Assembly: GCA_029204225.1 (NCBI GenBank)
Contig: CM055103.1
Span: forward strand, 56,005,078-56,069,077
Source of the DNA: Diphasiastrum complanatum
Taxonomy: Eukaryota > Streptophyta > Lycopodiopsida > Lycopodiales > Lycopodiaceae
Length of the DNA stretch: 64,000 bases
Reading direction: 5' to 3'
The notes beneath the pieces were generated by a model. It did no database searches, was not told the origin of the DNA, and was given only the letters and a program-made list of their open reading frames with translations. Of the stretch, positions 190 to 48,910 are shown piece by piece (the stretch's first letter is position 1; every line of letters begins with the position of its first letter). Position numbers and translations under genes: made by a program.

Positions 190-1192
190 CTGTCTATTCA
201 GCTTGGGTATTTACAAATTCCCCAGCCTCATTTTGAATATGTACATCATCTAGCTTAGATGGCCTTGGAGGGGGCACAATAAATGGTATCGACCTCGCCA
301 AGATGCTGAAAATAATCTCTTGCCAAAATATGTCACCTCAGAGCTGGTGTAGTCACCAGGTGAAAACTGTCAGACAATCAATCATCAATGATCAGTATTC
401 ATAACAAAATAATAGAACTTGAAATAATATTTACAACTTGAAATAATAGAATCAAAGGAGAATCAAGTTGAAATTACCTTTGCAAGATCACCATCCACTT
501 GATGATTGTACCAGTCAAAAAATCGTTTGGCATTGAGAAGCGCAAACCAACCACAGCTGAACGAGTCATTCTGTTTCGGGCTCTGAAACATTGCAAAACT
601 CATTCAATTAGAGTAAGAACGTGGTAACATATTATGAACAATATGGACAATGACTGAAATTCTAAACACCGACCTCAACACTAACAATATTCATTTTTCC
701 AGGAGTGACATTTTCTCCAAGGAAATGTCTCATTATCTCCGGCAACAGGCCATCAACCTTCTAGTGGGTGTTGATGGCAGAATTCATCTTTATACAGAAC
801 ATGTTTAAAACACTATATGCAGTCTTCTTTACTGAGATGATGTTTAAACTCCAGTGCTCACTGCAATAATGAAAGAGAGACTGATCAGAAGTGCACAAAG
901 AATTGAAATTATAAAGTAAAAAAGTAAAAGTACGAATACTTACTTTTCATGGTAAGGAACCACTATAAATTTTGCCACTGGCGAGCAATTCCAAAAGAGA
1001 GTGCCGCATAGCTCTTCATCCTTGCATAGAAGAGAAACACAATAAAAAGTGCTAAGAACAAAAACCTCTTTCATAGAGTCCGTTGCTATAGAGTATTGCC
1101 ATAATTGGAAGGAAGATTCTACAACATCATCATTGATACAGGCCCTACGATTCCTTAGCTCCTCAAAGAATCTTGATATTTGAGGCCGTAAT
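190..1192 (-). pseudogene. Ulp1/SENP-type cysteine protease exons, locus A
   Basis: Spliced C-terminal part of a Ulp1-like (C48) protease, a family that cleaves SUMO or similar modifiers and is also common in plant transposons. Exons read on the minus strand: about 1192-944, 860-674, 582-478 and a last one within about 340-190 whose acceptor I could not fix. Introns begin GTAAGT, GTCGGT and GTAATT and end in AG, and all join in frame. Exon 1 ends in FIVVPYHE and exon 2 opens with EHWSLNII, the catalytic-His block. Exon 3 contains PKQNDSFSCGWF, the oxyanion Gln and catalytic Cys block. The usual Asp after the His appears as Asn (VLNMF), and an in-frame TAG follows INTH near 765, so the copy is probably inactive. 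It lies downstream of the histone-like segment on the same strand, with a frameshift near 1190. Confidence 0.72.
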
Positions 1193-1463
1193 TTAATTCA
1201 TTGATGCGAAACTCAAAAGGCATGCCAACTTTGTCAATGACATCTGATATATCAGTCTCAAATTTGAGATATTGCTCAAAATCCAAAAACGGTGTAATAA
1301 CTACCGTGCTAATTGGTAATTTAAAACATGTATTTACATTATCATCTAAAAATTTTGTAGCTAAATTGACAGTGTTATCTATGGTAGTTGTATCTACACT
1401 AGCATTATTGAAAATATCTACAATTGTAGGGAAATCACGAGGGGAATCAGGAGGGAGGTCCAA
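1155..1463 (-). pseudogene. Linker between histone-like and Ulp1 parts, locus A
   Basis: Open stretch of about 100 codons between the histone-like segment and the protease exons. It carries VDTTTIDNTVN followed by TKFLDDNVNT, which resembles the tail of locus B (VDTAALDLVVN, then a VNHVDTFLP segment), so it is treated as the linker of the same gene. No catalytic motif is visible. The reading frame is offset from the upstream histone-like segment and from the downstream exon beginning near LRPQISRFFEEL, so at least two frameshifts or unrecognised splice junctions separate the parts. The first codon in the stretch is TTG, so no true start is implied. The function is unknown. Confidence 0.45.
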
Positions 1464-1483
1464 ACTCCTCCTGATTTTTTTGG

Positions 1484-1729
1484 TGCACTCCCCTGCGTCG
1501 TGGTTGCAATTGAGAGTTCGAGGTTCTCTTTAGTGATATGGCAGATGACACGAATAAACGCCGCCTTAGGAATAAGAAGTTCAGTGGATCTCTGATACTT
1601 CTTGATCTCAGACATCCAATGGCTCCTCATGACCCTCCTCTCTCTATTTGGAGGTCTCAGGGAAGGCGGGGTTCTTGGTCTGGATGGTCGCGGGAAGAAA
1701 TCTATACGTATCTGTTTGACATGGTCCAT
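1484..1729 (-). pseudogene. CENH3/H3-like histone-fold segment, locus A
   Basis: Begins at an ATG (1729, reading left) with MDHVKQIRIDFF, followed by a proline/arginine-rich tail. Residues 41-60 read EIKKYQRSTELLIPKAAFIR. Against plant H3 ([20 protein letters not shown]) 14 of 20 positions match by hand count. LLIP followed by AAF is closer to CENH3 (TNLLIPAASF in Arabidopsis HTR12), as is the following ICHIT. This covers helix alphaN and the start of alpha1. The sequence then diverges, and helices alpha2 and alpha3 are missing here, probably deleted. In the histone family this region packs DNA in the nucleosome. Here it is fused upstream of a protease, which no ordinary histone gene is. The start is supported by a similar MDRVKQ start at locus C. 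Confidence 0.68.
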
Positions 1730-1779: not shown

Positions 1780-2775
1780 GCGCACAAAATCGATATGTAC
1801 AAACAAATATCGGTTTTGTGCACATGGCTATCAGGAGGGTAGAGTCGGGGAATGAAGATGGCGAACAGAACTGATATGTACGGACATATATCGCTTTTGT
1901 GCACGGCGCTATGAGGAGGGTAGTGTCGGGGACTGAAGATGGCACACAGAACCGATATCGGAGCAAACAATGAAAAGAAAGTTGTCGAAATGGCCTCGAA
2001 ATTCGATCTTTATGTTTTTTGCTCGCACGTACGAACAAGCAAGGCCTCACACGAGCGAAAAATCGGCCAACCAATCGCATAGTGCCATGTGTCGATCATT
2101 GACTCACACGTGCGAATCAATCCAACGAATGATTTCTTGCCACGTGGCATCTGCATCACACATGTGGGTGAAGCCAATGAATAGGACATTGCCACATGTC
2201 TATGGCCGTTTGACTCACACGTGCGGTTAGTACGGACGAATAGTAATTTGCCAAGTGTCTTGCAGCGTCACACGTGCGAACCAAAAAGTATAAAAGTGAC
2301 TTATTTTCTCGCTTTTTCCAATTTTTTTCTCGATTTTTGTAATATCGATTCTGTGCGCGGCCTGTTCAGTCCATTCTGGCTTGCATACACTGTCTCGCAC
2401 AATAGCAATATTTGCTCCCAACTTCCGATATCGGTTTTGTGCGCGACTTTCGTTTTTGATTTTCTCCCTCTCTGTCTATTGTCGCACAAAACTGATATCG
2501 GAGAAAACAGTGAAAAAAAAGTTGCCTCAGAATCCGATTTTTATGTTTTTCGCTCGCACGTGCGAACAAGCGCGGACTCGCACGTGCGAAAAACCGGCCA
2601 ACCAATCGCATAGTGCCACATGGCATTGACCATTGAATCACACGTGCGAATCAATCCAACGAATGATATCTTGTCTGCCTCGCACGTGTGGACGAAGCCA
2701 ACAAATAGGACTTTGCCACGTGCCTATGGCCGTTTGACTCACATCTGCGGTTAGTACGGACAAGACTTCTAACTT
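1780..2775. promoter_or_regulatory. Palindrome- and CACGTG-rich upstream region, locus A
   Basis: Non-coding block upstream of the locus A histone-like start. It repeats two motifs in both orientations. One is GATATCGGTTTTGTGCGC (2431-2448) and variants at about 1789, 1809, 1868, 1945 and 2484; two facing copies would make a perfect palindrome. The other is CACGTGCGAA-type, with CACGTG cores around 2143, 2218, 2272, 2556, 2580 and 2640. CACGTG is the plant G-box, bound by bZIP and bHLH factors. The same motif pair recurs at three other loci in the window. Short open frames inside it are repeat-driven and not counted as genes. Confidence 0.5.
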
Positions 2776-4221: not shown

Positions 4222-7200
4222 TGGCAGCAGCAACAACAGCAGGAGGAGGAGGGGGCCTTTGTTGGAGCCCAAGTCGGAATCATGATCAATCTGCCCATTT
4301 CGTATTTTTCTATTCTCATCTCTCTGCTACTGCTCCTCCTCCTCCTCCTATTGTTCGTCCTCGTGCTCCCATGGTGGCAGACAATTCGATGGCAAGCACC
4401 TCGAAGGAAGATCCCAAGAGTTCAGCTCCGTTCTCTCACCTCTGGTTTCGATTTCTGTTGCCGCCCACCAGTCAGTCACATCCTGTCTCATCTTCTTCTT
4501 CATTTTCTTCTTACTCTTTTCTCTCTCTGTTTGTGTGTCGTGCAGGAGGGCAAGCATCGAGGACACAACAGCTCTGGGAGGAGTTCTTCTCAGATCCTTC
4601 GCAGTGGTGGGACAATAGGAGTAACAAGGTGAAATTGCCTGTACCGTATCTGTCTATGGCATTCACTCACTTGGGGTATGACGGAGGGTTTGTTTCTCTC
4701 GAGCTCGCACTGCAAGTTCCTAATTTTTCAGGGGACTAGTACTTTCCTTGCTTAGAATTCAGAATTAGAACAGCAGCTTATTCTATGGGCAGTGGTGGAA
4801 TTGATCAGCACTCAGGTTTTATATGCTTAGCTCAGGAGCTTGTTCTGAAAGCATTGTTGGAATTGAGCACTCACTCCAGTTTTGATATAATTAGCTAATT
4901 AGTCAGTCTATAATTAGCTGAGCAGCTTGTTCTATAAGTATTGTTGGAATTGAGCAGCCACTCAAGTTTTCATACAGGAGCTCGTTCTGTAAGCATTGTT
5001 GGACTTGAGCAGTCACTCCAGTTTTCCTATAATTATCCCAGAAGCTTGTTTTATCGGCAGTGGTGGAATTGAGTAGTCAGTCAAGTTTTCAAATAATTAG
5101 CTAAGCAGCTTGTTCTATAAGTATTGTTGGAATTGAGCAGTCACTCCTGTTTTCATATAATTAGCTCAGCAGCTTGTTCTATCGTCAGTGGTGGAATTGA
5201 GCAGTCACTCCAGTTTTGATATGATTAGCTCAGGAGCTTGTTTTATTGGCAGTTGTGGAATTGAGTAGTGAGTCCAGTTTTCATATAATTAGCTAAGCAG
5301 CTTGTTCTATAAGTATTGTTGGAATTGAGCTCAGCAGCTTGTGTTATGGGCAGTGGTGGAATTGAGTAGTCAATCCAGTTCTCAAATAATTAGCTAAGCA
5401 GCTTGTTCTATAAGTATTGTTGGAATTGAGCAGTCACTCCAGTTTTCATATAATTAGCTCAGCAGCTTGTTCTATCGTCAGTGGTGGAATTGAGCAGTCC
5501 CTCCAGTTTTGATGTAATTAGCTCAGCAGCTTGTTTGATACGCAGTGGTGGAATTGAGTAGTCAGTCCAGTTTTTATATAATTAGCTAAGCAGCTTGTTC
5601 TATATAAGTATTGCTGGATTTAATCAGTCACTCCGGTTTAATATAATTAGCTCAGCAGCTTGCAAGCATTGTTGAGCAGTCATATAATTAGCTCAGCAGC
5701 TTGTTCTGTCAGCATTGCTGGCTCAAGGCCCAGCTTGCTTATTTCTATGATTGCAATAGACTCACTCCAGACCATGTCAGTAGATTCGCTTGGAGCTAGC
5801 TAGCTATGGCTGATGCTGGTAATTTTTTACAGAAAAATTCAAGATTTCCGGACTTCAAACATAGGAGTACCGCAGAGAAGGCTCTGTGGATTGATAACAG
5901 GTTCAATCCTCCATGGGTACATGCCCGGCTATCTGTCATGGTACAAGGTCAAGAACAGGAGCATTCCGGTTATTCCATACCTGAAGCATCTGGTATGCTT
6001 ATTTTTGTCTCATTGCATGGCATTTCTCTTTCTTCATGAGCATTGCCTGACTAAGGAGAGAGGTGAATTTGCAGAGATGTTTAGACTGGCCACATCAACA
6101 TTCCTCAATCATATCTCGCCAATGTCATGATGCTTCCAGGCAAAGTAGCTAGAGCAGAACAGCTTTGGCAGGAGTTTTTCTCAGATCCATCTCAGTGGTG
6201 GGACAACCGATATATCAAGGTGTGACTACCCATCTATCTAGACAACTTCCTTTGAAGATGATTTGTAAAATGGCTTTGGCTAATGACTTTTGACTGGTGC
6301 CTAGTGAAAAGACTTTCACTGTTATTTACCTATGGTGTATGTGGTTGATTGATTGGCTGTTGTAGTATTTTCCGTAAATCGATGTTATTATGTCTGCTGA
6401 TCTTTTTCTGTATTGTTGTGTAGAAAAGTCCTAGGTACCCGGACTTCAAACATAAGAGTACACATGAAGCTCTATGGATTGAAGATTGGCTGGACCTTCC
6501 TTGGGTTAAAGAGAAGGTGGCCACCATGGCATGGGGTCAAATACAATCTTTTAGTGGATTGAGATCACGGTATGGTTTTGATCCTGGTGTTGATTGTGGA
6601 GCTCTAGGCTTCCTTATTGTTCCATCAAAATTCCAGTGCAAGAAACTTTTTCATATTTTTGTCTTCTGAATCCTTATGTGAATCATGATTCAGGATGCCT
6701 GATTCCTTGGGCAATGTGAGCAAACTCTGTCAGAAAGGACGACTAAAAGAGGCCCTGCATATGGTGGAGCTTATGGTTCGGCAAAATATTCAAGCTCCAA
6801 TTAACACCTATGTTTGCCTTTTGAAGGGGTGCACCAGAAGGAAAGACCTGGCGGAGGGCAAGCGAGTGCATGCCCTCATAGTCCGAACGGGTCTTGATTC
6901 AAACAGTTTCCTAGGAAACGCCCTTATAAACATGTATGCCAAGTGCGGTAGTGTGTTGGATGCACGCCAAGTATTTGACTCAATGCCTGAACACAACGTA
7001 TTTTTGTGGACTACTATCATATCAGCATATGCTAATCACGGACAAGGTGAGGAAGCCATCAACCTTTTTCAGCAAATGCAAAAGAAAGGCATACTACCAA
7101 ACAAGGTTGCATTTGTTGTTGTCCTGAAAGCATGTGCCAGGATCCCATCTCTGGAACAGGGCAAACAGGTCCATGAGGACATCATCAAAAGTGGATTTGA

Positions 7201-8530
7201 ATCCGATGTGATTGTAGGGAACACCCTTATTGACATGTATGCAAAATGTGGATGCATAGAGGAAGCATGTCAGGTGTTCAATAACATGCATAAACGAGAT
7301 GTGGTGTCATTGAATGCAATGATTGCAGGATATGCACAGCAAGGGCTTGGCAATGAGGCTCTTGCTCTGTATGAACAAATGAAACAGGAAGGTGTGCAGC
7401 CTGACAATATCACATATGTTATTCTCCTAAAAGCACGTGCCAGCATTGCAGCCCTGGAACAGGGCAAGCAGCTCCATTTGGACATCATCAAAAGTGGCTT
7501 TGAGTCGGATGTGATTTTAGGGAGCCTCCTTGTCGACATGTATGCAAAATGTGGGTGCATAGAGGATGCACGTCACGTGTTCAACAGCATGCCAGAACGT
7601 GATGTGGTGTCATGGACAGCAATGGTTGTAGCATATGCACAGCAAGGGCTTGTCAAGGAGGCTCTTGCTTTGTATGAGCAAATGAAACAGGAAGGTGTGC
7701 AGCCTGACATTGTCACATATGCCGTTTTCTTAAAGGCATGTGCCAGCACTGCAGCCCTGGAACAGGGCAATCAGATTTATTTGGATATGATTCAAAGTGG
7801 CTTGGAGCCAGATGTGATTGTAGGGAACACCCTTGTTGACATGTATGCAAAATGTGGCCGCATAGACGATGCACGTCAGGTGTTCAACACCATGCATGAA
7901 AGAGATGTGGTGACATGGAATACGATGATTGCAGGATATGCACAGCAAGGGCTTGGCAAGGAGGCCATCATACTTTTGGAGCAAATGCAGAGGGAAGGTA
8001 TAAAGCCTAATCAGGTAACCTTTGTTAGTGTTTTATCTTCATGCAGCCATTCTGGCCTAGTAGATAAAGGTCGTCACCTCTTCGATTCCATGTGTAAAGA
8101 TCATGGTGTCATACCAACTATGGATCACTATGCCTGCATGGTTGATCTTCTGGGCAGAGCAGGGTGCCTGGCTGATGCTGAGGACTTTATTAACAAAATG
8201 CCAATCCAGCCCAATGCTTTGATTTGGATGACTTTGCTTGGTTCTGCCAAAAACCATGGCCATCTGGAAATTGGAAGACGTGCCTTTGACAGTGTTGTGA
8301 AGATGGAACCAGAAAATGCTGCACCCTATGTGCTTCTGTCAAACATCTATGCAGCAGCCAGCAGGAGAGATGAGGTAGCAAACATAAGAAAAGGAATGAG
8401 TGATGTAGGTGTGAAAAAAGTGCCTGGGTGCACCTGGAATGAAGTTGGAAACCAGCTGCATGCCTCCTTTGTTGTAGGTGATGCATCTGATGGGCTACAA
8501 CTAGATCCATGTCGAATAGATTCAAATTGA
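4221..8530 (+). CDS. PDF-motif/PLS-E PPR fusion protein, spliced
   Basis: Predicted organellar RNA-binding protein. Exons: 4221-4628 (perhaps with a 75-nt intron at 4471-4545), 5833-5992, 6140-6219, 6424-6569 and 6694-8530. All junctions are GT-AG and the frame is kept throughout, giving 876 residues (851 if the 75-nt intron is removed). The N-terminus is Ala/Ser-rich and could be a transit peptide. Two PDF motifs follow (QLWEEFFSDPSQWWDNR then FPDFKH; QLWQEFFSDPSQWWDNR then YPDFKH), the signature of OSB organellar ssDNA-binding proteins. About four P-L-S triplets (MYAKCG, GYAQQG) then lead into E-type motifs (HYACMVDLLGRAG, VLLSNIYAAA). It stops soon after LHASFVVGD, without a DYW deaminase domain. 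PLS-E proteins usually specify C-to-U editing sites in plastids or mitochondria. Splice sites are read by eye; an alternative is a PPR gene starting at 6695 with the PDF exons as a separate gene. Confidence 0.82.
4766..5730. repeat. Intron minisatellite of the PPR gene
   Basis: Around a dozen or more diverged copies of a roughly 65-80 bp unit lie in the first large intron (4629-5832). Units share CAGCTTGTTCTAT, GGTGGAATTGAG or GTTGGAATTGAGCAG, and ATAATTAGCTCAGCAG. Two flavours (CAGTGGTGG and AAGTATTGTTGG) tend to alternate, suggesting a higher-order dimer. Confidence 0.88.
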
Positions 8531-9609: not shown

Positions 9610-10560
9610 AGATGGAGGAAAAGACTCGGCAAATATCTTAAAAGCCAAATTCATAAAGTTAGCTTCATCTTGTAGGTTCACATCGACGTCCACATCTTCA
9701 AAGTCTCCTTCACTTTCATTCACATCCTCCTCGGGATTTTCAGGTACATTTTCTTCCACATCCTGAACTCTTGTGGATGTAGAGCCTCTCTACAAAATAC
9801 AGAAATACATTTCATTAGAATTGAGATTAAACTAATTTACATCACAAAAGTAAAAACTTACAAAAATTAAAGTTTAAGATTTCACAATTGGATGCATCCC
9901 ACGAGATGCCATATAAGTTTTAAGACCGACATATCCAGATTCGTAGCCTTGCTTGTACTCTTCACCAGTCATGTCCCTTCCAAAATCACCAAGCTACATA
10001 AAACAAAAAATATAGTTAGTAATAAAATATGTTAGCAATAAATTGTTATACATGTACTTCTTGTAACATCTTTCGCTAGTTTCATGCAATATACATGGAT
10101 GCTTAGATGTGGCTCCATGAGAAAAATTATACATGCATTTCAGAGTTTTCAAATCACCTGCCAAATGCCATTCCACATTGAAATCCCCTTTCCCAGGTAC
10201 ATTGAGTTGTACCCCATCCATATGCTCTTTAATAATCCGAGGATAAGATGTTCTGCAGAATATCCATGATAAAATATCATGACCCTCTTTCAAAACCTAT
10301 CAACAGAAATGTACCATTAGATTTAGAAATAAACATAGCTAGTTCGTTTGAGTTAAAACTTCAATCATATTTCATTATTAAATAAGAAAATATACCTGGA
10401 AAGTTGCCAACCACCAGATATCGTTTTCTGACTGGACACTGAAGTTAAAATCTCCATGATCGATTGATTGTCCAAGTGCCCTGTTCATGAGAGCTATACT
10501 AACCCTCTCCATCTTTTGACCTTTAACTATTTCCGACTCACCTAAATCTAATGGTGTATC
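9610..10560 (-). CDS. Unrecognised multi-exon gene or domesticated fragment
   Basis: At least four coding blocks are readable on the minus strand. The first runs from about 10560 to 10396, ends in WWLATFQ and has a GTATAT donor. The second runs from 10296 to about 10048 and includes GDFNVEWHLAGDLKTLKCMY followed by SHGATSKHPC. The third starts at 9993 (LGDFGRDMTGEEYKQGYESG) and ends at a TAA near 9877, or is spliced before it. The fourth, about 9790-9610, is acidic (ENVPENPEEDVNESEGDF). The first two join in phase 0 at good GT-AG sites, which argues for a real or recently real gene. I do not recognise the family. Similar WHLAGDLKTLK wording may occur in uncharacterised, possibly transposon-derived plant proteins, but this is from memory. 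No start codon could be fixed upstream of 10560. Confidence 0.5.
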
Positions 10561-15833: not shown

Positions 15834-16335
15834 GATCAGATATCTGTACTTCTGGGTACTTGCATGATCTCGCTGGTACTCTTTAAAGCGTGGAGGACAG
15901 GAGAAGGTTTTGTTTTCGTCGTTGGTTTCATTTTGGTCATTTGCCTTCTCTCGTACTGGATCGCAAAAGATTTTCATTTGTGAATCTTTCGTGTTCGCGA
16001 ACCGTTCGTCTTCGTCTGCTTTGACTTTCGTGTTCGCGAACCGTTCATCTTCGTTTCCTTTGACTTTCGTATTCGCGAAACTTTTCGTGCTTCGTGTCTC
16101 CTGACTTTCGTGTTCGCGAACATCTTCGTCAAGCTGAGGGTTGAAAGCTAGCAAGGCTTTGTAGTTAGAAACATTTCGTTTCTTCAAATACTTTAGCATT
16201 GGGTTGCACAGTCTTAAAAACATGTAGAAAAGGGTGAAATAGGGAATGAAAGTAGTCTAAGTTCTCAGAAATTCCAAACTCAGTCAGAAATGCACTAAGG
16301 GTGCTCTCACGGCTAGATCCGGAAGACGATGCCAT
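15831..16335 (-). pseudogene. ORF2 family (MAS.S...FLT.FGI), locus B
   Basis: Starts at an ATG (16335, reading left) with MASSSGSSREST, then LSAFLTEFGISENLDYFHSL. By hand count 26 of the first 50 residues match locus C (24439), so this is a conserved protein, not a chance frame. Near 16170-16220 the frame shifts. The second frame continues with NYKALLAFNPQLDEDVREHE, three copies of a 13-residue unit (ERFANTKVKADED) and an acidic, charged C-terminal part, and is then cut off by the Copia LTR. No known domain is recognised and no signal peptide or membrane segment is seen. It is transcribed away from the histone-like gene of locus B across a shared 640-bp region. Confidence 0.6.
15985..16125 (-). 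repeat. 39-bp tandem repeat inside ORF2
   Basis: About three and a half copies of a 39-bp unit containing TTCGCGAACACGAAAGTCAA on the minus strand. In frame it encodes a 13-residue repeat with FANTKVK, so expansion keeps the reading frame. Confidence 0.85.
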
Positions 16336-16982
16336 TGGTCTCAGACAAATATCGCTTCTATGCGCGAGGTAAGCAAACAGGAAAAAAGTGGTTGTTAAGA
16401 ACGTGCACATGAACAATATGTATGGAAAATGAACATGGAATATTGCACTTGTACAGCTACAGGAGAACATACAAGTAGTGCGCACAAGAGCAATATATAT
16501 ATGAAAATTGAGAAAAAAAAGCAAAAAAATAATCGGGTTGAGTGCCTTTCATAGGTAATTTTCCACACATGCGAGTCAACGGTCAATGGAACACATGTCA
16601 CCTCCCAATTCATCTATACTATAACACAAGTGTGAACTAACAGCTTGACACATGTCACAAGATCATTGCATGATAAATAGACACGCGACACAATTTGATT
16701 CGTTGCCACTTCGCATGTGCGACAAGACATCCATTCGCACGTGTGAGCCGTGGGATAAAAGACTTCATCCCTGAGGCATTTTTTTTCACTTTTTTTTTGC
16801 ATAGCCTTTTCGCATATCGCTCTTGTGTGACGCTTTTGTATCTCCTTTGCTACCTATTACACTCCCTGCGCACAGAAGCGATATATCGTATGTACATATC
16901 GCTTCTCTGTGACCCCCGTTACACCAATTTCAAACAACTCTCTCATATTGTGCACAAGTCCGATATCCCATAATCTAGCTAT
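16336..16982. promoter_or_regulatory. Shared bidirectional region, locus B
   Basis: Lies between divergent starts: ORF2 (16335, minus) and the histone-like frame (16983, plus). It contains GCGATAT/ATATCGCTT palindromes at about 16347, 16868-16912 (two facing copies) and 16950, and CACGTG or CACATG cores at about 16585 and 16738. The architecture matches locus C, which supports a bidirectional promoter shared by the two genes. Confidence 0.5.
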
Positions 16983-17678
16983 ATAGATAGGAGAAAGCAG
17001 ACAAAGAGAGATTTTTTCTGGGCTGTTCCTTAGGGCCTCCTGTTGACTTGAATCCTCGAAGGTAAACGAGAAGGCATAATCACAGCAGGTGGTTATTAGA
17101 GGTCAACCAACCTTCTTATTCCCAAAGCTCCATTTTACAGTAGTGTTCAGCAGATCACTAGGGACATTCTTGGCAGGTTTGTGAGATTCACACCCGCGGC
17201 ACTTCAGTGCCTTCAAGAGGTTGCTAAGGACTATCAGAGTCTTTTTTTTTAAGATTCCTTTTTGCTAGCTATACATGCCAAGCGAGTTACAATTATGACA
17301 AAAGATTTTCACCTACTGTACATGATGCAGGATAGATACTCCAGATTAAATAAGGGTGAGCCATCTGCACCCAGACCCAATCCCATTGATAGGATAGATC
17401 TCCCTACCAAGAGGCCTAGGAAGCAGCCAGCCCCCAAGAGGGCCTCGAAGAAAACCAGGAGGATGGATATCCAAGTATCCCCTTCTAGTAAAAATGTAGA
17501 TACTGCGGCACTGGATTTGGTTGTAAATACAGATACAACCATTTTGAAAAATCTAGTCAATCATGTAGATACTTTTCTTCCACCTCCTCCTCCTTTTACC
17601 TCAATTGATTTTATTTTTATTTTGCCAACAAATGTGGCTATTGTCGATATATGGCTGATAGCTATAGGAAGCAAATAA
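16983..17678 (+). pseudogene. CENH3/H3-like histone-fold protein, locus B
   Basis: The most complete histone fold of the four. The start codon is ATA where locus C has ATG (ATAGATAGG versus ATGGATAGG). After a frameshifted N-tail the frame at 17094 reads Y, stop, RSTNLLIPKAPF. It continues with VQQITRDILGRFVRFTPAAL and QCLQEVAKDYQ (alpha2), then a TAA at 17250, then [19 protein letters not shown] (loop 2 and alpha3). [10 protein letters not shown] is identical to canonical H3. TNLLIP, DS and KDF are the CENH3 variants of those positions. The TAG replaces the Q of YQ, and the TAA falls where H3 has E of FED, so both are single-base decay events. A basic tail (KRPRKQPAPKRASKKTRR) and a VDT-rich segment follow. 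No Ulp1 exons are visible downstream. Confidence 0.75.
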
Positions 17679-17699
17679 TCAAATTTTCTGTGTGTTTGG

Positions 17700-18370
17700 T
17701 CAGCTGAATTTATTTTAACATATAGAAAATTTGGTACTCCTTTATTTACTTTGACTGAAAGAATGTTCAAGCTCCAATGACGACTGCAATATTAGAAATA
17801 AGATTGAAATCACTACATAAGGAAACATAAACAAACGTTGCTCAATTAACAAGAAACACATTGCATGTGTCAACATTAATCAACTAACAAGACTTAATTA
17901 TTTTCATATGGAATCAAATAAATTTTGCCCACTACACACGATAAAGTATACATTTTTCTCAAAATTGGCCTTTTTTGCTTTTACTACACTTATAAAAAAT
18001 GGACTCACGAGAAAAATGTTTCGAAGGGAATCAAGAGCTATGCTATGTTGCAAATTTTTTTTGACCAGGATGTTTGAGCAAATTTATTTTTAAGCTCTTT
18101 GCAAAAATTTGGACCCAATCAAAAGCTTTTCTGGCTATCTAAAAGAAAAAAGTCAAAATAATTGTTGAGCATATCTATTTTATTGGCTAAATAAGAATCA
18201 TATTCATTATAATGATTAGAATAAATTTTTTTTGACTAGGATCGTATGGAATTCTAACAAAAAGATTATGTATAGGGGCTACAAGGGATTTAGAAACAAT
18301 ATATACAGATTTACTTGTGATGCTATCTAGCCCTTCTTGGGTTATCTCATGTCTAGGAGAAGAAACCTTC
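17700..18370. other. Gene-free stretch
   Basis: AT-rich, no recognisable coding motif; separates loci B and D, which point toward each other. Confidence 0.5.
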
Positions 18371-18378
18371 TGAGGAGG

Positions 18379-18905
18379 CTACTGGGCAACAGTAGGAGGA
18401 GAAGGTGATTGGGAATTTGTTTCAGAATCAGAAGACTTCGAAGCAGTGGTCAGAATGAGGTGGGGACGCTCAGTAGGAATAACTCTAGGAGGAGTAGAAG
18501 CAGATAGCCTACGAGATCCTTATTCAATAGGATGGTGCTGCTTTCTTTTCCCCCTAGAGGTGGTGGGGAGATTGGTTCTCTCCAGAGGCAGATCCTTGGA
18601 GGTACTAACATTATCAACATGAAGATTTGAATAACTCTCCCTAAGTTGTTTGAGAATTACAAAATCTTTGGGCCTGATGGTAACACACTTAGCATGCATA
18701 GTCTTGATAAATATATCCTCAAAAAATTAGGCAAAGTAATCCTCTAGCACCTTGCAAGCCTTGCATGGCAGTGGAGGTGAATCTCACCTGATGGCCGAGG
18801 GAGAAGGTGACATTCCTCATAGATCGGTTGAATGGAGATATAAGAATCAACAATTAAGTTAATGTTTGTAATTTTTTTTATCTTCCTCAACCAGACTTGC
18901 TTTCG
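18379..18905 (-). pseudogene. CENH3/H3-like histone-fold protein, locus D
   Basis: Diverged minus-strand copy in several frames. Reading left from about 18905: WLRKIKK, T-stop-LLI, then SPFNRSMRNVTFSLGHQVRF and TSTAMQGLQ (alpha1, loop 1, alpha2). After a frameshift it continues EDIFIKTMHAKCVTIRPKDF and VILKQLRESYSNL (loop 2, alpha3). The order and spacing match H3 ([20 protein letters not shown]). A basic segment (TTSRGKRKQHHPIE), an in-frame stop and a Ser/Pro-rich tail ending at TAG (about 18379) follow. The SYSNL and LP.T.RGKRK tail resembles the RYSRL and LPTKRPRK tail of locus B, so the homology extends beyond the histone fold. Several stops and frameshifts show it is not functional. Confidence 0.65.
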
Positions 18906-24438: not shown

Positions 24439-24593
24439 ATGGCCTCCACGTCTAATACTGGTTGTGAAACCTCCTTGTCCGTATTTCTCACAAAGTTTGG
24501 AATAACGGAGGATACTGAGTACTTTAAGTCCCTCTTTCGCTCTTTTTTGCATATGTATAATATAGTACAACAAAGTGTAGATGTTTTTTTATG
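24439..24593 (+). pseudogene. ORF2 family (MAS.S...FLT.FGI), locus C
   Basis: Begins MASTSNTGCETS, then LSVFLTKFGITEDTEYFKSL and FRSFLHMYNIVQQ, and stops at TGA after VDVFL. It aligns without gaps to the first 50 residues of locus B ORF2. The stop falls where an LTR-like sequence begins (about 24600), so the rest of the gene was probably displaced or lost. No domain is recognised. It reads away from the histone-like fragment of the same locus. Confidence 0.6.
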
Positions 24594-24599
24594 ACTATT

Positions 24600-24790
24600 A
24601 TGTTAGATTTAGGGATATAATCAGTATCCCTATAATTTCTATAGGTAATCTATCCTTCATGTATTTTAGTAATCTTGTGCATTACTTCCCATAGTATAAA
24701 TAGAGATAGAATAGGATGTACACCAGGCTCTTTGAGCAATTTAGGAATTCCACTCAATGTAATATGTGTAAAAAGATGTCATTTATGTCA
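24600..24790 (+). mobile_element. LTR-like fragment
   Basis: Starts TGTTAGATT and contains the perfect inverted repeat TAGGGATA (7-nt gap) TATCCCTA at about 24611-24633 and a TATAAATAGAG promoter-like box near 24695. These look like LTR promoter features, but neither a partner LTR nor a PBS was found. Confidence 0.35.
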
Positions 24791-24904
24791 AGTACCAAAC
24801 CGGATTTTGTTTTTTTTGTTTTTTGTTCAAATCCTAGAAGAGTAAGACACATCGATACCGGATTCTCAAATTCCTTCATCATCCACTTCTAAATAATATT
24901 CTGT

Positions 24905-25235
24905 AAAGGATGTCAGTAACTTTCTAGTTGATACCCCTGATAGAGATAGTGATTATCTAAATGTTGATACGAACAAGCTGAGGGATGCCTTCATTGGCTT
25001 GAGCGCCACTATTGAGAAAAAAAGTGATGATGTACAATCCAACTGCTTTTTTAATTTTCCTAAATATTATATAAATGACGATGTATATATTAGTATAGAA
25101 GATCAATGTAATTTCTTTGATTATCAGGAGGATGAGGTTCTTTGTTTATTGTCCAATGCCATTTCTAAGTTCTCTAACATTATCGATTTTGAAACCGAAG
25201 ACTTAGTGCCAGGCATTGACTATGATGATGAATAA
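24905..25235 (+). CDS. Unrecognised acidic protein fragment
   Basis: Open frame of about 110 codons reading VSNFLVDTPDRDSDYLNVDT, then KLRDAFIGLSATIEKKSDD, ending in VPGIDYDDE and TAA. It is acidic, with aromatic-rich segments (NCFFNFPKYYINDD). No ATG lies at its upstream edge except an internal one at 24999, and no known domain is visible. It may be the leader-encoded part of the Copia element that follows, a further piece of ORF2, or unrelated. A following frame (25259-25504) reads SSIGGHNVDYPDLVAVDDEE and is also unassigned. Confidence 0.3.
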
Positions 25236-48369: not shown

Positions 48370-48910
48370 CTGGTCGGTTGAGATGGTGAGGAATCTCGTC
48401 GGTCGAGATTGGACCCATAATCGTCGTTCAGATTTGACGCGAACCTGTCGGTCGAGATCTGATAAAAAATCCGTCTATAACGCGAACTCGTCGGTCGAGA
48501 TCTGATCGAAAACCGGTCTGTCGAGATCTGACGCAAAAATCCGTCGGTCGAGATCTGATTGAAAACCCGTCGGTTGAGATCTGATCGAAAACCCATCGGT
48601 CGAGATTTGATGCGAACCCGTTGGTTGAAATCTGATCGAACATCCGTCGGTCAAGATCTGATGCGAACCCGTCGGTGAGATCTGATGCAAACCCGTCGGT
48701 CGAGATCTGAAAAAAACGTCAGTTGAGATTTCAGAAAAAAGCATCGGTTGAGACTACAAAAAATAGAGTCGGTTGAAATTTGAAAAAAAATCGTTGGTTG
48801 ATATTTGAAAAAAATCGTCGGTTGAGATTTAAAGGGAAGCGTCGACTGAAATATGAGCGGAGGGCGTCGGTTGAGATGTGAGCGGAGGGCGTCGGCTGAG
48901 ATGTGAAAGA
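48370..48910. repeat. GGTCGAGATCTGAT minisatellite
   Basis: Around 18 diverged units of 26-31 bp based on CGTCGGTCGAGATCTGATCG. Open in several frames on the minus strand, coding SDLDRRVF- or IRSRPTG-like repeats. Most regular in 48430-48720 and decaying toward 48910. Lies between the 5' LTR/PBS and Gag. Confidence 0.9.

Follow-up and report, generated by a model that had tools for sequence, protein, structure and literature searches.

A high-copy inverted-repeat transposon of Diphasiastrum complanatum very probably carries a gene for a histone H3–Ulp1 fusion

We examined a 64,000-nucleotide stretch of the Diphasiastrum complanatum genome (GCA_029204225.1, contig CM055103.1, forward-strand positions 56,005,078 to 56,069,077), hereafter the window, in which a first-pass annotation had described a CENH3-like histone segment and a Ulp1 protease coupled in one gene. 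All three motifs that it had quoted (EIKKYQRSTELLIPKAAFIR, EHWSLNII, and QNDSFSCGWF) are found on the minus strand within positions 190-1729. The first lies inside an open frame at 1729-1508, the second in exon b, and the third in exon c of a gene whose remains occupy positions 250-1729:

1508..1729, minus strand: H3-like N-tail (MDHVKQIRIDFF..), alphaN, and alpha1 (Pfam Histone, E = 1.8e-5)
1173..1445, minus strand: linker and start of the Ulp1-like domain (..DFEQYLKFETDISDVIDKVG..), in a frame that differs from that of the H3 piece
943..1161, minus strand: Ulp1-like domain, end of exon a, then a GT donor
674..859, minus strand: Ulp1 exon b, with HWSL (His), KMNS (Asn in the acid position), and one TAG stop
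478..582, minus strand: Ulp1 exon c, with QNDSFSCGW (active-site Gln and Cys)
250..366, minus strand: final exon d, stop-terminated

The introns that separate the four exons start with GT and finish with AG, and the donor of the second intron reads GTCGGT in the window copy versus GTAAAC in its relative at locus L016 (loci are given by L numbers). The 103-residue window frame matches Pfam Histone at E = 1.8e-5 and 25.4 bits, slightly below the curated cut-off of 26.4, and the H3 piece is 50% identical to the H3–Ulp1 frame of L015 (E = 7e-16). Exon c by itself matches Peptidase_C48 (PF02902) at E = 0.08 only. Once the window exons are spliced and translated, the TAG and one frame change each being read as X, they match it at 2e-7 and 31.5 bits, above the cut-off of 20.7. 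The window copy itself is a dead, decayed gene copy: alpha2 and alpha3 are deleted, so that the H3 piece ends after alpha1, the frame changes along its length, and a TAG interrupts exon b. The first-pass annotation was right that the gene is present; it needs correction in that this copy is broken, and it did not mention that the gene is a high-copy repeat. Upstream of the H3 piece, a unit of ~530 bp occurs twice (window 1940-2765), with blocks that are 84-93% identical. CACGTG and CGATATCGGTTTTGTGCG-like motifs are abundant in these units, which may be a control region of the window copy's subfamily.

Better copies were sought among 19 H3-bearing 10-kb loci, chosen mainly by long frames. A complete H3 core (90-91 residues, ungapped and stop-free, with alphaN to alpha3 in order) is present in 15 of them, including the near-identical L009 and L023, and is broken in L014, L018, L021, and L024. 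Pfam Histone matches reach 3.9e-27 in L015, 3.1e-22 in L010, and 9e-20 in L011. Because these relatives match so strongly, the piece in the window can be assigned as an H3-type histone. In a PDB search with the H3 part, the best matches are canonical H3 chains (top E = 8e-22). The N-tails read M[AT]RxKQTT in most copies of subfamily A and MDRRKQTRRDFF or near variants in subfamily B. Compared with a plant H3 sequence, the element H3s, including those of a second family described below, are ~45-58% identical at most, and 13 full-length host H3 matches are 97-99% identical.

The connection between the two parts is seen most directly in L010, L011, L015, and L016, where a single open frame of 307-371 residues runs from H3 into the N-terminal Ulp1-like region. 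No Met occurs from alpha3 to the frame end in L015 and L016; some Met are found in L010 and L011. Across 20 H3 loci (the 19 loci plus the window), exon a is present in 17 and at least one of exons b and c in 11, and the loci that lack exon a (L014, L018, and L021) are all among the four with a broken H3. When the best 150 H3 hits and the best 150 exon-c hits from separate searches were compared, 20 same-strand pairs were found at +1171..+1378 bp (chance, 0.004), at least two of which resemble duplicate-contig twins. Three further pairs within 5 kb have opposite orientation. These data support the claim of the first-pass annotation that a histone of H3 type and a protease of Ulp1 type are coupled in one gene; when intact, this gene, as predicted by joining exons, would encode a single H3–Ulp1 fusion protein. 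Neither outcome that the annotation had named as refuting, the lack of a significant histone HMM hit or a confinement of the two domains to separate genes, was obtained.

We characterized the protease part by using an alignment (A4) of five Ulp1 regions, each spliced exactly from the genomic sequence; stops, frame changes, and a single unclear junction were written as X. L017 (mutated exon-b acceptor) and L012 and L025 (broken frames) were left out. This alignment replaces an earlier one, A1 (C48 matches in 4/6, best 1.6e-7; SENP2 at 4.5e-4), which was set aside for inexact residues. Three of the five A4 members match Peptidase_C48 at E<=1, the best at 2e-7 and L016 at 3.5e-6 and 27.5 bits. 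Searched against PDB, the A4 profile finds the Ulp1-like SUMO protease 6dg4 (3.7e-4), SENP2 (0.0058), and yeast Ulp1 (0.074), and the SENP2 alignment (profile 34-194) starts within the exon that also encodes H3. His (H119), Gln (Q183), and Cys (C189) are invariant in 5/5 members. The domain resembles SENP2/Ulp1 (C48) in the profile match over its catalytic part, in the His, and in a Gln placed six residues before the Cys, the spacing of Ulp1. It differs in its strong divergence, in the histone fusion, and in having Asn in the acid position. Active-site residues have been lost in single decayed copies outside A4, as in L025, where Y replaces C.

Nei-Gojobori distances were calculated for the H3 core and for Ulp1 exon a in subfamilies A, B, and C. 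The mean nonsynonymous (dN) and synonymous (dS) distances of the H3 core are 0.067 and 0.483 within B (15 pairs) and 0.262 and 2.0 between B and C (11 of 12 pairs finite). Within A they are 0.061 and 0.103 (21 pairs), as expected for young decaying copies. The ratio dN/dS (omega) for the H3 core is 0.10-0.16 in 16/16 pairs with finite dS>0.3, out of 21 pairs; four of the remaining pairs, with dS<0.2, give 0.11-0.50, and one is not computable. This low omega indicates that selection maintained the histone part while the element spread. For Ulp1 exon a, omega between B and C is 0.08-0.13 (5 pairs, with dS>2 and near saturation), and the selection case for the protease part is weaker than for the histone part.

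Copies were counted in the 1.74-Gb D. complanatum genome only. The 39-residue H3 stretch of the window gave 3,659 first-look candidates, and 150/150 scored have E<1e-6. A 91-residue H3-core query gave 6,709, an exon-c query 5,164, and a query with a transposase-like gene, introduced below, 9,826, with 150/150 scored candidates matching in each case. Only those 150 were scored in each search; the remaining first-look candidates may belong to more than one family and likely include duplicate contigs. Since five of five sampled hits of a canonical-H3 query belong to the second family, the candidate counts do mix families. The best 150 H3 hits are spread over every large contig, C1-C23. The gene is a high-copy repeat. 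In one region (C1:65.1-66.7 Mb), ten exon-c copies of equal score each carry one internal TAG, which suggests amplification within a larger repeat block.

The gene resides in units with inverted repeats. An all-against-all comparison of the loci revealed a common 3' border, and terminal inverted repeats (TIRs) of ~35 bp (CATTAGAGGAGTTC..) were found at both ends of four units, with one mismatch at one end of the L016 unit. The ends of two of the four units were paired by nearness only. Units bounded by these inverted repeats measure 8,219 bp (L016 plus L029) and 5,088 bp (L031). Used as queries, the 80-bp unit ends returned 1,289 and 965 first-look candidates, of which 40 each were scored. At its 3' end the window copy finishes in this same terminus, which lies a little beyond the window; the 5' end of its unit was not found within the window. 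A further 5' end, in L039, is a duplicate, since its flank is common with L031, and a search of L040 for the matching 3' end found none. A nested insertion (L026 versus L022) shows no target-site duplication; its far end was not reached.

The first gene of the 8.2-kb unit is transposase-like, lies on the plus strand, and has a coiled-coil-like part; an antisense accessory gene comes next, followed by the H3–Ulp1 gene. The transposase-like gene lies upstream on the same strand in 20/21 pairs within 8 kb (chance, 0.03), at a distance of 3.1-4.3 kb in 19/20 same-strand pairs and 1.7 kb in one. Its conserved motifs are LKLDESEIVKG, GDLKTLK, CxxC, and CTLH. The antisense gene (L016:6702-7604, plus strand; L015:2920-3822, minus strand) encodes a protein with the motif MASSSxSSRxSGLSSFLxEFG and, later, YREDEVLRLL, and has no convincing Pfam match. 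The suggestion of a mobile element in the first-pass annotation is thus borne out by the inverted-repeat units and the thousands of candidate copies, and for the same reasons the alternative that it offered, a chromatin gene, is unlikely. We conclude that the gene is very probably an accessory gene of a high-copy TIR DNA transposon and encodes an H3–Ulp1 fusion.

The five sampled hits of the canonical-H3 query, picked for good frames, all belong to a second H3-bearing transposon family, not to the Ulp1-fused one. In this second family (L032-L037, L041, and L042), one copy read upstream is a single 440-residue frame with a MAWTKQTARDPR start, ~300 Q/P-rich residues, and the H3 core. The second-family N-terminus begins MAWTKQTAR, the H3 matches Pfam Histone at 4.1e-26, and the frame stops directly after the H3 core in 3/5. 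Exons a, b, and c of subfamily B were unmatched in the 13.3 and 7.2 kb examined. Homologues of the transposase-like gene lie near the second-family H3 (31-37% identity over aligned pieces), and a nearby protein resembles the accessory protein of the first family, by eye, through a common REDE stretch. Retention of an H3 in a family in which no Ulp1 was found suggests that the H3 module is valued by itself, and its occurrence with other cargo can be argued to mean that the histone is an anchor and the rest exchangeable. A third, different H3-like frame was seen in L009:842-1375, plus strand (MAFMKQTTQ..PWLKDIRRLQKTNNLLILKAHI; Pfam Histone, 3.3e-11).

A centromeric identity of the histone is not supported, its features being mixed. 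Copies of the A, B, and C families have an LIP motif and a loop 1 that is one residue longer than in H3, and the LLIP motif in the element H3 is as in Arabidopsis CENH3. The same families keep F84, where CENH3 has W. In a tree, the Ulp1-fused A/B/C clade (100/97) is separate from the long-tail clade (100/100), and neither groups with the two CENH3/CENP-A references; yeast H3 was also included. The tree thus lends no support to a CENH3 origin. The element histones share with plant CENH3 and H3 a full histone fold and an H3-like start of the N-tail (MARxKQT, or MAWTKQTAR in the second family); they differ in being present in thousands of candidate copies and in being fused to Ulp1 or carrying a tail of ~300 residues. 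Integration of retrotransposons via CENH3 chromatin has reportedly been described.

Each half of this combination has precedents. Ulp1 in plant transposons is known already: PMC13317346 describes a conserved Ulp1 domain in the accessory genes KIU/VANC of VANDAL, a non-TIR MULE of angiosperms. VANCs counter silencing (PMC13317346, PMC5735166). In its main text, PMC13317346 does not use the word "histone" (0 occurrences). The H3–Ulp1 gene is likewise a transposon accessory gene with a Ulp1 domain, but the D. complanatum units have clear TIRs, unlike VANDAL, and their Ulp1 is joined to a complete H3; no MULE domain was among the Pfam hits of the scanned frames. Single histones in viruses are also known. 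Bracovirus H4, which has an extended tail, and H3-like proteins of large DNA viruses are single core histones thought to enter host nucleosomes, as stated in PMC9145170, in whose main text "protease" occurs 0 times. The gene described here resembles them as a single core histone encoded by a parasite, and differs as a genomic repeat family with C-terminal protease cargo. In the open-access PMC literature we found no report of a core histone encoded by a transposon, nor of any histone–Ulp1 fusion.

What would such a protein do? The intact protein is predicted to begin with an H3-like N-tail and a full H3 fold, from which a basic linker leads to a cysteine protease of Ulp1/SENP type (C48). The H3 part would pair with host H4 and be incorporated into, or docked on, nucleosomes, and would thereby anchor the protease to chromatin. 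The anchored protease could then strip SUMO-type modifiers from silencing proteins beside the element, and this removal of SUMO would keep element copies expressible. H4 binding and chromatin entry appear most plausible because the H3 core is mostly kept behind an H3-type N-terminus. In practice, H3 tolerates proteins fused to its C-terminus. By analogy, the nearest functional counterparts would be the Ulp1-bearing VANC genes of VANDAL (PMC13317346, PMC5735166).

We assign these proposals different weights. The sequences support three points: that H3 and Ulp1 are fused, that the fusion gene lies within the element, and that purifying selection acted in the past. That the fusion protein serves as a chromatin-anchored protease for anti-silencing is put forward tentatively, at somewhat less than even chances. 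As a working account that takes the H3–Ulp1 identity of the transposon gene together with the anti-silencing mechanism, we favor the proposal by a modest measure. It is also conceivable, though short of probable, that a transposon superfamily with thousands of copies encodes its own H3 variants, joined either to a SUMO-type protease or to an additional tail of ~300 residues, and uses them for nucleosome entry and for reprogramming of the chromatin at its own copies, in the service of selfish anti-silencing or of targeting. If the protein does act as a chromatin-anchored protease, one could test directly how selfish DNA might overwrite silencing at the nucleosome; a natural histone–enzyme fusion of this kind could serve as a tool, and hosts might draw new H3 variants from it. 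In such genomes, annotation could mistake H3 copies borne by transposons for histone genes.

Several observations weigh against this interpretation. On the protease side, 2/5 A4 members have no C48 match at E<=1, and the Asp of the catalytic triad is absent, with Asn (KMN) in the acid position in 5/5, so that the domain is a putative protease. No examined copy is intact across all Ulp1 exons: each of the five A4 members is interrupted by a stop or a change of frame or has a junction that is unclear. Within B, omega for Ulp1 exon a is 0.30-1.49 (10 pairs, dS 0.04-0.43), and the choice of copies by long frames and protein similarity may have lowered dN somewhat. On the transposon side, no target-site duplication is visible in 4/4 units, and no Pfam or PDB entry resembles the transposase-like gene closely enough to name it. 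AlphaFold models were unusable both for the transposase-like protein (mean predicted local distance difference test score, pLDDT, 41) and for H3, linker, and half of Ulp1 (mean pLDDT 38); helices at the alphaN-alpha3 places of the latter were given no weight.

The main rival accepts the same fusion and assigns the H3 part to target choice or to the transposition complex, through docking on centromeric, heterochromatic, or newly replicated nucleosomes or through shaping of the element DNA, while the protease trims SUMO off the transposase or host factors. The H3 module that is kept with different cargo in two families fits this proposal, as do the CENH3-like LIP motif and the longer loop 1 of A/B/C. 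The spread of the best 150 H3 hits over all large contigs, C1-C23, may count against it, and we regard this rival as unlikely, though the most serious of those considered. Passive capture of host H3 and Ulp1 fragments without function is a good deal less credible. Capture of gene pieces is frequent in transposable elements (PMC13317346), the window copy and A copies are decaying (A–A dN 0.061, dS 0.103), and Ulp1 omega within B rises up to 1.49 at low dS. Mere capture is difficult to reconcile with an H3 omega of 0.10-0.16 across diverged copies, with conserved order and spacing, and with one architecture in subfamilies A, B, and C.

Similarly, H3 and Ulp1 might be two adjacent genes of the element rather than one protein. 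The full-length fusion is visible only through exon joining, and the link between the exon-a region and C48 consists of the modest SENP2 alignment (0.0058) and a Pfam match that begins at the end of that region. The 307-371-residue open frames of L010, L011, L015, and L016 nonetheless span H3 and the N-terminal Ulp1-like region, in L015 and L016 without a Met from alpha3 to the frame end, and we consider two separate genes highly improbable. Least probable of all, to the point of being hardly credible, is a remnant of an integrated large DNA virus with a histone and a Ulp1-like protease. Single H3-like histones do occur in viruses (PMC9145170), but scans of IMG/VR with the H3–Ulp1 frame, with the transposase-like protein, and with the Ulp1 alignment A1 returned no relatives (scans that start from one protein detect close relatives only), and introns, inverted-repeat units of 5.1-8.2 kb, and thousands of candidate copies argue against such an origin.

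Further pieces of this kind of element are scattered elsewhere in the window:

16983..17579, plus strand: second H3 copy plus linker, alpha1-alpha3 traceable, 4 in-frame stops (51% identity over 206 residues, E = 2e-53)
18529..18838, minus strand: third H3 copy, alpha1-alpha3 remnants, frame changes
17600..17782, minus strand: Ulp1 exon b (HWSLNILSVK..KINSADQTH), on the same strand as and downstream of the third H3 copy (E = 6e-11)
10044..10551, minus strand: piece of the transposase-like gene (E = 4e-29)
16186..16368, minus strand: antisense accessory gene, partial (MASSSGSSRES..; E = 1.5e-12), located upstream of the second H3 copy
24484..25232, plus strand: further accessory-gene piece (E = 6e-42)

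The layout of the accessory piece at 16186..16368 and the second H3 copy matches that of the full transposon unit.

A frame with a DUF7869 domain (PF25273; L010:6736-7326, minus strand) was considered as the transposase of the element. It matches at 8.7e-42 in L010 but lies past +860, where L010 diverges from its relatives, and it was rejected; we took it for a neighbouring insertion. DUF7869 gave 2,953 first-look candidates, with 150/150 scored above the cut-off, and the repeat was found in 0/14 control genomes. It looks like another mobile family.

Two tandem repeats were also observed in the window. A long array of 24-26-bp CGTCGGTYGAGATC units spans 48396-48906, and a 303-bp repeat is present in 2.8 copies at 7110-7965, the unit of which resembles, by eye, PPR-type coding sequence.

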